Shown here one piece after another: positions 8,184 through 11,362 of a DNA stretch of 32,804 nt (its first letter is position 1; the number at the start of each line of letters is the position of its first letter). The position numbers were made by a program, and so were the translations under genes. The DNA comes from Cyanobacteria bacterium SIG32 (GTDB lineage Bacteria; Cyanobacteriota; Vampirovibrionia; Gastranaerophilales; Gastranaerophilaceae): assembly GCA_015152455.1 (NCBI GenBank), contig SUTY01000012.1:1-32804 (forward strand). The letters run 5' to 3'. A model generated the notes under the pieces. It searched no databases and was not told where the DNA came from. It saw only the letters and a program-made list of their open reading frames with translations.

Positions 8184-8212
8184 TTGATTTTAATTTTTTA
8201 TCGAAGTATGAT
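8184..8212 (+). promoter_or_regulatory. Promoter of metK
   Basis: TTGATT (8184-8189), 17-base spacer, TATGAT (8207-8212). The predicted start near 8219 leaves a leader of about 63 bases, almost all of which is the pseudoknot described at 8224-8273. Confidence 0.7.
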
Positions 8213-8223
8213 GTTGTCTAATG

Positions 8224-8273
8224 GCCGGGTCGGAATTAAAAACCTTACCGGCAAGTACAAATAAAAATTAAGG
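8224..8273 (+). promoter_or_regulatory. Candidate riboswitch: H-type pseudoknot burying the metK Shine-Dalgarno sequence
   Basis: Stem 1 pairs GCCGG (8224-8228) with CCGGC (8248-8252). Stem 2 pairs CCTTA (8243-8247), directly before the 3' strand of stem 1, with TAAGG (8269-8273), part of the ribosome binding site TAAGGAG. Loop 1 is 14 bases; loop 3 is 16 bases and A-rich. This is the topology of SAM-II, SAM-V and preQ1-I riboswitches, in which ligand binding closes stem 2 and blocks ribosome entry. The sequence does not match the consensus of those classes, or of the SMK box, as I remember them. The gene makes SAM, so SAM is the obvious ligand guess. Confidence 0.5.
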
Positions 8274-8281
8274 AGAAAAAG

Positions 8282-9547
8282 ATGACACCAAGAAATTTTT
8301 TATTCACTTCTGAATCAGTTACAGAAGGACACCCCGACAAAGTTTGCGATCAAATTTCAGACGCAATTTTGGACGAATTTTTAACAAAGTACCCACAATC
8401 ACGTGTTGCTGCTGAAACAACAGTTACAACAGGCATGGCACTTGTTTGTGGTGAAATTACTGCAGATTGCTACGTTGATATTCCATCAATAGTTAGAAAC
8501 ACAATCAAAAACATTGGATATGTTGGCGAAGAAGGTGGCGGATTTGATTACAAAACATGCGCAGTATTAACAAGTATTGACGAACAATCTTGTGATATCG
8601 CAGGTGGCGTAAACAAGGCACTTGAAACTCGTTCAGAAAATGCTGATACATCAGTTTCTGAAACAGAAAATATCGGTGCTGGTGACCAAGGTATTATGTT
8701 TGGTTACGCTTGTAATGAAACACCTGAATTAATGCCATTACCAATCAGTTTAGCTCACAAATTGTCTTATAAATTGGCACAAGTTAGAAAACAAGGTCAA
8801 TTAAATTACTTAAGACCAGATGGCAAATCACAAGTTACAGTTGAATATGTTGATGGAAAACCATCAAGAATACATACAGTATTAATTTCAACTCAACACG
8901 ATCCTGAAATTAACGGTATTTCTGACAACTCAAAAGTTCAAGAAATTATTAAAAACGATATTAAAAAATACGTAATTGATGCTGTATTTGCGAACGAATC
9001 GATTCAACTTGATTCTGAAACTATCATCTTAGTAAACCCATCAGGACGTTTCGTTGTTGGTGGACCTCAAGGTGATGCTGGTTTAACTGGCCGTAAAATT
9101 ATCGTTGACACATATGGTGGTTACTCAAGACACGGCGGTGGCGCATTCTCAGGTAAAGACCCTACAAAAGTTGACAGATCTGCAGCTTATGCTGCAAGAT
9201 GGGTTGCTAAAAACGTAGTTGCGGCAGGATTGGCTGACAAATGCGAAATCGAATTAGCATATGCTATCGGTGTTGCTGAACCTATTTCTATCATGGTTGA
9301 CACTTTCGGAACAGGTAAAATTTCAGATGACGAAATTTCTAAACTTGTATTTGAAAACTTTGATTTAAGACCAGCTGCAATTATCAATCAATTCGACTTA
9401 CGTGGTTTGCCAGCTAAAAATGGTGGTAAATTCTACCAATTATTAGCTGCTTATGGTCACATGGGTAGAACTGATATCAACGTTCCTTGGGAATCTGTTG
9501 AAAAAGCTGAAACTTTAAAATCAAAATCATTAGCACTTAGCTGCTAA
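8282..9547 (+). CDS. metK: S-adenosylmethionine synthase
   Basis: MetK condenses ATP and methionine into S-adenosylmethionine, the cell's methyl donor; it is a cytoplasmic tetramer. Visible signatures are TEGHPDK (14-20, ATP binding), [12 protein letters not shown] near 131, the methionine-loop region, and [19 protein letters not shown] with the catalytic lysines. At 421 residues it is somewhat longer than E. coli MetK (384), within the range of cyanobacterial-type enzymes. The start has a strong TAAGGAG site and its own promoter. The site is predicted to be sequestered by a pseudoknot in the leader, suggesting feedback control by product or a related metabolite. The gene is monocistronic, closed by a 12-bp terminator hairpin at 9573. 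Confidence 0.97.
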
Positions 9548-9629: not shown

Positions 9630-11342
9630 TTAATCATCTTGTTCTAATTTTTCAAGACGTTTATTTATAGCATTGATTTGCTCTTTTAATAATTTATTTT
9701 CTTCTTCAAGAACTTTCACCCTGTTATCAATTCCTGAAATTCTTGCAACAATAGTTTTCACTTCAGTAATTAAATTTTGAAGAATTTTATCAAGTTGCTT
9801 AACTGCATTCAATAGTGCATACTGGATACGTTCTTGTTTAACCACCAAGTATCCGTCGCCGTTTTTCTCAACCGCTTCAGGAAGAACCTTTTGAACTTCT
9901 TGAGCGATTACACCAACTCTGACAGTTTTATCTTTGTCGTCTTTGTATGTAAAGTATTTAGGAACAATATTTCGGATTTGTTCTAGACCGTTTTTGTATT
10001 CTTCTTTGATATTTTTAAGACGTTCATCTGAATACACAGTAATAGCTGATACACCAGAGATAATTCCAGTAGTAGAACTAGATCCTAAATAGACAACGTT
10101 GGTTGTAGTTGCGTCCGTAGCTGTCGGACCTGAACCAGCTCCAATACATGTTTTATTAGAACCTGTAACATAATAACAAGCCTTATTCCCTAAAGCTGAG
10201 TTATAATTTCCAGTAGAATTACTATACAAAGAATATACACCTATGCCAGCATTGTAACTTCCAGTTGTATTAGACATAAGAGCTCTATCACCAAAAGCAG
10301 CATTATTACCACCTGTTGTATTGTAATACAATGAATAAAATCCTGTAGCCGTATTATTACTACCAGAAGTCGCACTACCTAAAGCGTACATACCAGTTGC
10401 AGTATTTTGAAGACCTGTTTTCATAGAATACAAAGCATAGCGTCCAATAGCAGTATGTCCACTACCTGTTGTATTAGAAGCAAGTGCAGAATCTCCTACT
10501 GCAACATTTCGATAACCAGTTGTATTTGCCTTTAATGCTTCATATCCTATAGCTACATTGTTATAACCAGTTGTATTAGCTTTTAAAGAATTATAACCCA
10601 ATGTTGTGTTTTTCTCACCTGTACTAGAGCCACTAACACCCAGCATTGCATTTGCACCTATAGCTGTGTTGTAGCTACCAATATGATACTTCAAAGATTG
10701 ATAACCTAATGCGCTATTTTCTTGACCAGTAGTATTTGCATACATACTTGACATACCAACACCAGTATTGTACCTACCAGTCGTATTATTGTCTAAACTC
10801 CAATAGCCAAAAGCTGAATTACTTGAACCAGTAGTATTATCTCCAAGACTTGTGTGTCCCATCGCAGTATTACTTCCACCAGTTGTATTTTTCCATAATG
10901 CAAAAGCACCAAAAGCATTATTTCCACTGCCTGAAGTAAGAGATTCTAATGCACTAGAACCATGAGAATTATTAAAACCACTTGTTTCAGTTCTTGATTC
11001 AGAAACTTCACCCAAAAAAATACTTGAACCAGCAGCTCTTAAAGGGAAAGCAGCACCATTTTCATTATTTAACACTATATGGTCAGTTGAGCTATTAGGT
11101 ATTTGTATAACTAACTTTGCGTTCTCACCTTCTGCTTTTGTTTTTGTACCGATCATTGCGGTTTGAGAATTTGCCAAACCATAATATATATCACTATTAT
11201 TCGCCGCCCAACGCCAAGGATTTTCTATATCCACTGTTTTACGTTTTGTCATTATTGGTGCAAATGCCGCCAACATTACGGTCAAAATAAGCATTACAAC
11301 CATCATTTCGGCAAGTGTGAAAGCCTTAGAATTTCTTCTCAT
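9630..11342 (-). CDS. Prepilin-anchored fibre protein with head repeats and C-terminal S74 chaperone domain
   Basis: The 570-residue product has four parts. (1) A type III prepilin signal: MRRNSKA|FTLAE, with E at +5 and a hydrophobic helix to about residue 30. (2) A linker of about 110 residues. (3) About 16 repeats of roughly 17 residues (about 141-412), pattern NTAxGxxSLxxNTTGxx, resembling YadA-type trimeric head repeats. (4) A Peptidase_S74 intramolecular chaperone domain with S438-D439 in SDERLKNIKEEYKNG, the usual self-cleavage site, then VGVIAQEVQ and a C-terminal coiled coil (about 505-570). S74 domains are known from phage tail spikes, where they trimerise and cut themselves off. 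I chose ATG 11342 because GGGGGA lies 9 bases upstream; a TTG at 11351 sits too close to that site. Probable role: a trimeric surface fibre exported through a pilus or type II machine. Confidence 0.85.
   Translation of the reverse strand: MRRNSKAFTLAEMMVVMLILTVMLAAFAPIMTKRKTVDIENPWRWAANNSDIYYGLANSQTAMIGTKTKAEGENAKLVIQIPNSSTDHIVLNNENGAAFPLRAAGSSIFLGEVSESRTETSGFNNSHGSSALESLTSGSGNNAFGAFALWKNTTGGSNTAMGHTSLGDNTTGSSNSAFGYWSLDNNTTGRYNTGVGMSSMYANTTGQENSALGYQSLKYHIGSYNTAIGANAMLGVSGSSTGEKNTTLGYNSLKANTTGYNNVAIGYEALKANTTGYRNVAVGDSALASNTTGSGHTAIGRYALYSMKTGLQNTATGMYALGSATSGSNNTATGFYSLYYNTTGGNNAAFGDRALMSNTTGSYNAGIGVYSLYSNSTGNYNSALGNKACYYVTGSNKTCIGAGSGPTATDATTTNVVYLGSSSTTGIISGVSAITVYSDERLKNIKEEYKNGLEQIRNIVPKYFTYKDDKDKTVRVGVIAQEVQKVLPEAVEKNGDGYLVVKQERIQYALLNAVKQLDKILQNLITEVKTIVARISGIDNRVKVLEEENKLLKEQINAINKRLEKLEQDD
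10107..10922 (-). repeat. Tandem ~51-base coding repeats, about 16 units
   Basis: Each unit encodes about 17 residues with conserved Asn-x-Ala-x-Gly, Ser/Ala-Leu and Asn-Thr-Thr-Gly positions. Most units are 16-17 residues; one (GVSGSSTG region) is longer. The DNA sequences have diverged, so this is an old array held by protein selection rather than a recent expansion. Confidence 0.85.
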
Positions 11343-11362
11343 ATTTAACAATCCCCCATGTG

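Follow-up and report, generated by a model that had tools for sequence, protein, structure and literature searches.

How is the S-adenosylmethionine (SAM) synthetase gene of this gastranaerophilalean bacterium controlled, and does the very short leader in front of it take part? We analysed a window of 32,804 nucleotides, the whole stretch of DNA under study, in which metK is identified by TIGR01034 (E 2e-162) and by the N, M and C domains of Pfam S-AdoMet_synt. Only about 63 nt separate a promoter-like site from the metK start codon, and the transcript is expected, from the position of this site, to begin near 8219. Similar −35 and −10 boxes are also found 5' of the corresponding element in related leaders. 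The parts of the locus are listed in the table below. Downstream of metK, the minus strand encodes a protein (9630–11351) of unusual composition: its N terminus has a methylation motif like that of type IV pilins, repeats of the NTTG type are numerous, and an endosialidase chaperone domain (Peptidase_S74) forms the C terminus.

Table. Features of the metK locus (window coordinates)
Feature	Position	Strand	Sequence, evidence or remarks
Promoter-like site	8184–8212	+	TTGATT-17 nt-TATGAT; consensus match only, 9 of 12 positions
Stem P1, 5' arm	8224–8228	+	GCCGG; pairing and compensatory changes across 128 unique leaders
Loop L1	8229–8242	+	GTCGGAATTAAAAA, 14 nt; core GUYGGA nearly invariant
Pseudoknot helix, 5' arm	8243–8247	+	CCTTA; CTTA invariant except for one A-to-G change (L046), first base C or A
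Stem P1, 3' arm	8248–8252	+	CCGGC; abuts the pseudoknot arm, linker of 0 nt
Loop L3	8253–8268	+	A-rich; about 8–88 nt in relatives, some with an extra hairpin
Pseudoknot helix, 3' arm	8269–8273	+	TAAGG; inside the Shine-Dalgarno region AATTAAGGAG
metK	8282–9547	+	methionine adenosyltransferase (SAM synthetase), the controlled gene; TIGR01034 and Pfam

The complementary pairs GCCGG/CCGGC and CCTTA/TAAGG interleave between 8224 and 8273, and the second pair makes use of the metK ribosome-binding site. This topology is rare by chance, since 20,000 dinucleotide shuffles, in which TAAGG was kept in place, produced an equivalent interleaved pair only 33 times. Plain nested folding energy was uninformative (z −1.07) and was set aside as evidence. 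The predicted fold also contains an inner GG/CC pair, which was likewise rejected: the first base of CCTTA is A in 39 of 128 leaders, so the pair is not conserved. We looked for a terminator at the leader and found none, so control should be exerted at translation. The decisive evidence for the element is comparative: it is present before metK in more than 100 related genomes. The original prediction of a minimal structured metK leader with interleaved stems is therefore borne out by the coordinates, by the shuffles and by more than 100 related leaders, and its assignment of the ribosome-binding site to one arm of the second stem also holds, TAAGG lying within the Shine-Dalgarno region.

We built a covariance model on 34 homologous leaders, and it matches 131 of the 191 genomes of family f1, in 28 of its 41 genera, normally once per genome; metK itself was found in 185 of the 191. 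The matches lie almost always directly 5' of metK, and the strong matches whose position was checked adjoin the gene. When 386 genomes of the phylum were searched with the model, all of the matches listed fell in family f1, and a search of viral contigs gave no match. In many genera the leader runs in the order GCCGGGTYGGAATTAAAARMCTTACCGGC, a variable stretch, AATTAAGGAG and ATG. A pattern scan of species-level genomes recovered at least 98 metK leaders; among the matches listed there were also three leaders that end at a sequence edge (L126, L213 and L227), two extra copies (L119 and L140) and a further 12 matches in unrelated surroundings that are put down to chance, P1 being absent from 11 of them. 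Since 60 of the 191 genomes of family f1 (about 30%) have no model match, this control is evidently dispensable. In the hairpin-less genera of the family that were examined (e.g., L239–L251), SAM-I was not detected at metK.

A few copies depart from this arrangement. In genome G132 (RUG770), a second copy (L102:659–704, minus strand; the L119 site) precedes a 75-aa helix-turn-helix gene with a sub-threshold Pfam HTH_17 match, near a contig end and possibly on mobile DNA; its P1 is changed to GTGG/CCAC, CUUA is kept and UAAG lies in the ribosome site. L104:2540–2583 (G278:C4) is a degenerate copy that has no ribosome-site arm, and L107:2662–2701 (G019:C105), which matches weakly ahead of what looks like a murQ-like gene, does not contain CUUACC and is probably due to chance. 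An extra hairpin in L3 (about TTGACGGTGATAAGGTTYGCCG) is conserved in several genera (L003, L006, L007, L012, L016, L030 and L034).

Covariation establishes P1 as an RNA stem. All of the 128 unique leaders can form pairs 1–4, and 91% can form pair 5; pair 3 is C-G or U-A and pair 4 is C-G, U-A, G-C or U-G. Double changes from C-G to U-A or G-C occur in at least six genera: g3 (L042), g10 (L020), g21 (L036 and L049), g22 (L284), g24 (L061) and g29 (L062). In the 34 leaders, we counted 19 cells with both sides changed, compared with 7.7 in shuffles, and the covariation score of 0.145 (0.068 when shuffled) was reached by none of 500 shuffles. Sliding the P1 partner by one to three positions reduces pairing in the same set from 90% to 13–57%. 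A conserved, structured leader with a covarying stem is thus found on a gene of SAM and methionine metabolism.

The 22-nt core is 94.1% identical in pairwise comparisons of 126 leaders, compared with 34.3% just upstream and 42.3% at fourfold-degenerate metK sites. Loop L1 is shortened in L046, L111 and L112, and the GUYGG (AUUGG in L046) and CUU(A/G)CC ends are kept; these three leaders lie outside the model-building set and are nevertheless matched by the covariance model. A 14-nt loop is geometrically far longer than is needed to span a helix of 4–5 bp. Because of this excess length, and because it lies within the most conserved part of the element, we propose L1 as the likely ligand pocket.

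The second helix tells a different story. Covariation in both stems had been proposed as a test, and P1 passes it, but CUUA/UAAG is invariant and hence shows none; the sole change in CUUA, A to G in L046, converts an A-U into a G-U pair. ATTAAGG precedes metK in all 98 hairpin-bearing leaders among the matches listed, compared with two of the 191 other genes on these contigs that have a Shine-Dalgarno sequence, and it is absent from those hairpin-less metK leaders of family f1 that were read. This coupling, the absence from hairpin-less leaders and the G-U pair of L046 together argue for the second helix. The pseudoknot arms alone are calculated to pair at about −3.0 kcal/mol, and at −1.3 kcal/mol in leaders whose 5' arm starts with A, whereas pairing of the leader with the anti-Shine-Dalgarno sequence amounts to −8.2 kcal/mol. 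The arms are weak by this comparison, so repression would need a stabilizing ligand or protein.

To compare the element with known RNA families, the window leader and ten relatives were searched against Rfam 15, both at the gathering thresholds and at E values up to 10, which returned only implausible chance matches. The search with known SAM riboswitch models, suggested at the outset, was also negative at the leader. At E ≤ 10, the SAM/SAH model (RF01727; gathering threshold, 40 bits) finds nothing at the metK leader, its best score in the genome being 18 bits elsewhere, and whole-genome searches with the SAM-II (SAM_alpha, RF00521; 36 bits) and SAM-V (RF01826; 41 bits) models gave none at the metK leader either. 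The view that the leader matches no known class withstands all of these searches. The SAM-I riboswitch (RF00162), which takes this place at metK in sister families f3, f50 and f51, is larger (its model has 108 positions) and resembles the element neither in sequence nor in fold. The preQ1-I riboswitch has a similar minimal H-type layout that uses the ribosome site, but the context here is SAM synthesis and not queuosine, and a preQ1-I match was absent from the Rfam search at E up to 10.

The closest counterpart in layout is the SAM/SAH riboswitch, a small H-type pseudoknot before metK that holds the Shine-Dalgarno sequence in its pseudoknot helix and switches translation off (PMC7367207, PMC2864571). 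As judged from complementarity and comparative data, the element described here shares with it the H-type layout before metK and a second helix that includes the Shine-Dalgarno sequence, a likeness of layout only. The two differ in conserved sequence (here GUYGGA...CUUACC), in the linker between pseudoknot arm and P1, which is absent here, and in host range (Rhodobacterales there, Gastranaerophilales here). SAM-II and SAM-V, the latter of which acts on translation (PMC6061858), are also H-type pseudoknots, and here too a loop strand might be accommodated in the second helix's groove, but their conserved sequence is another one and the present element controls metK alone, normally once per genome. 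It would thus appear to behave like the small pseudoknot SAM riboswitches, yet by the tests run it is a member of none. The core sequence was not found in the open literature, nor was a riboswitch mentioned in those open papers naming Gastranaerophilales that were listed; unpublished or subscription-only work may exist.

Sister families indicate what kind of control this position hosts. In two genomes each of f3 and f50 and in one of f51, a canonical SAM-I riboswitch lies directly before metK; a terminator-like hairpin, read by eye, comes after it, and control there is apparently transcriptional. In the genomes seen of families f2, f48 and f49, neither SAM-I nor the new element is present at metK. 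When the hairpin label is mapped on a 99-row tree of metK proteins, it requires four changes, compared with a shuffled mean of 27.6; the hairpin is carried by one large clade and by part of another, and their neighbours are without it. This pattern implies a small number of gains or losses. The presence of SAM-I at metK in the sister families points to the replacement of one SAM sensor by another. The genome of the window itself contains an above-threshold SAM-I match (G000:C35:30606–30689, L295), situated before a 105-aa ORF that is not a methionine gene. Such a match occurs in only three of 16 genus members searched, and this copy may be carried by mobile DNA or be a variant that recognizes a different ligand.

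That the element is a metK-regulating RNA is nearly certain. Its best explanation, and quite probably the correct one, is a translational SAM-OFF riboswitch of a new candidate class, an H-type pseudoknot so far seen only in Gastranaerophilales. Counting against it are the invariance of the pseudoknot helix, the family genomes that do without the element and the copy in G132, whose helix-turn-helix neighbour is no methionine gene. Here, we infer that the pseudoknot forms in vivo, that the switch works in the OFF direction and that the pocket lies where we have placed it. Stem P1 would fold first. When SAM is abundant, it would bind a pocket made of the conserved L1 and the junction of P1 with the pseudoknot, stabilizing the weak CUUA/UAAG helix, so that the Shine-Dalgarno sequence would be hidden and less SAM synthetase made. 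When SAM is scarce, the helix would open and the ribosome could bind. The logic is the same as that described for SAM/SAH and SAM-V, in which the ligand locks the pseudoknot and the Shine-Dalgarno sequence is masked.

The ligand is probably SAM. The presence of SAM-I in the same slot of sister families suggests that the metK slot hosts SAM feedback and is the best indirect evidence for this ligand; combined with the near-exclusive association with metK, it gives strong indirect support to SAM product feedback as the putative function. The same RNA switch might instead respond to another ligand of the methionine cycle (SAH, methionine or methylthioadenosine), or to SAM and SAH both. Association with metK does not by itself fix the ligand, and the SAM/SAH class, although metK-bound and pseudoknotted, does not discriminate SAM from SAH (PMC7367207). 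However, SAM is the direct product of metK and SAM-I is the sensor that fills this slot in the sister families, which makes a different ligand unlikely. Association with a gene has been a misleading guide in the past: the SAM-Chlorobi motif lies before metK or ahcY, and preliminary in-line probing showed binding of neither SAM nor SAH (PMC2864571). SAM therefore stays an inferred ligand here.

A little less likely again is a protein-binding mRNA operator, in which MetK or a regulator would bind the hairpin and repress translation. Translational autoregulation, too, typically involves a small conserved hairpin over the ribosome site, and a single target per genome would suit it, but the conserved part consists of the long L1 and the Shine-Dalgarno-complementary arm, which is the layout of ligand pseudoknots. 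In addition, some genomes within genera g3 and g27 are without the element, and we know of no precedent for RNA binding by MetK. A ligand-free translation attenuator, static or thermally melting, would agree with a weak pseudoknot helix placed on the ribosome site; since it would not need a core conserved to 94% with a 14-nt loop, we consider it very improbable. Two last readings are scarcely credible: that P1, an inverted repeat just 3' of the promoter, is a transcription-factor operator in the DNA, or that the leader encodes a conserved peptide (ATG 8222 opens a 16-codon frame through P1). The P1 sequence changes while its pairing stays, promoter spacing varies, and neither reading explains the coupling to the ribosome-site sequence; the peptide was rejected because only 46 of 128 leaders have an upstream frame of 12 codons or more.

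Returning to the SAM-OFF riboswitch, we think there is a good chance that the leader represents an undescribed SAM riboswitch class, an H-type pseudoknot of about 50 nt whose sequence is unlike known SAM aptamers and which has taken over from SAM-I at metK in a single family of non-photosynthetic relatives of the cyanobacteria. An RNA of about 60 nt is easy to synthesize, probe and crystallize. Several unrelated RNA folds already sense SAM, and, if this reading is true, another very small one, from a gut lineage, would be added to them; the family would then show directly how one sensor can take the place of another in front of the same gene.
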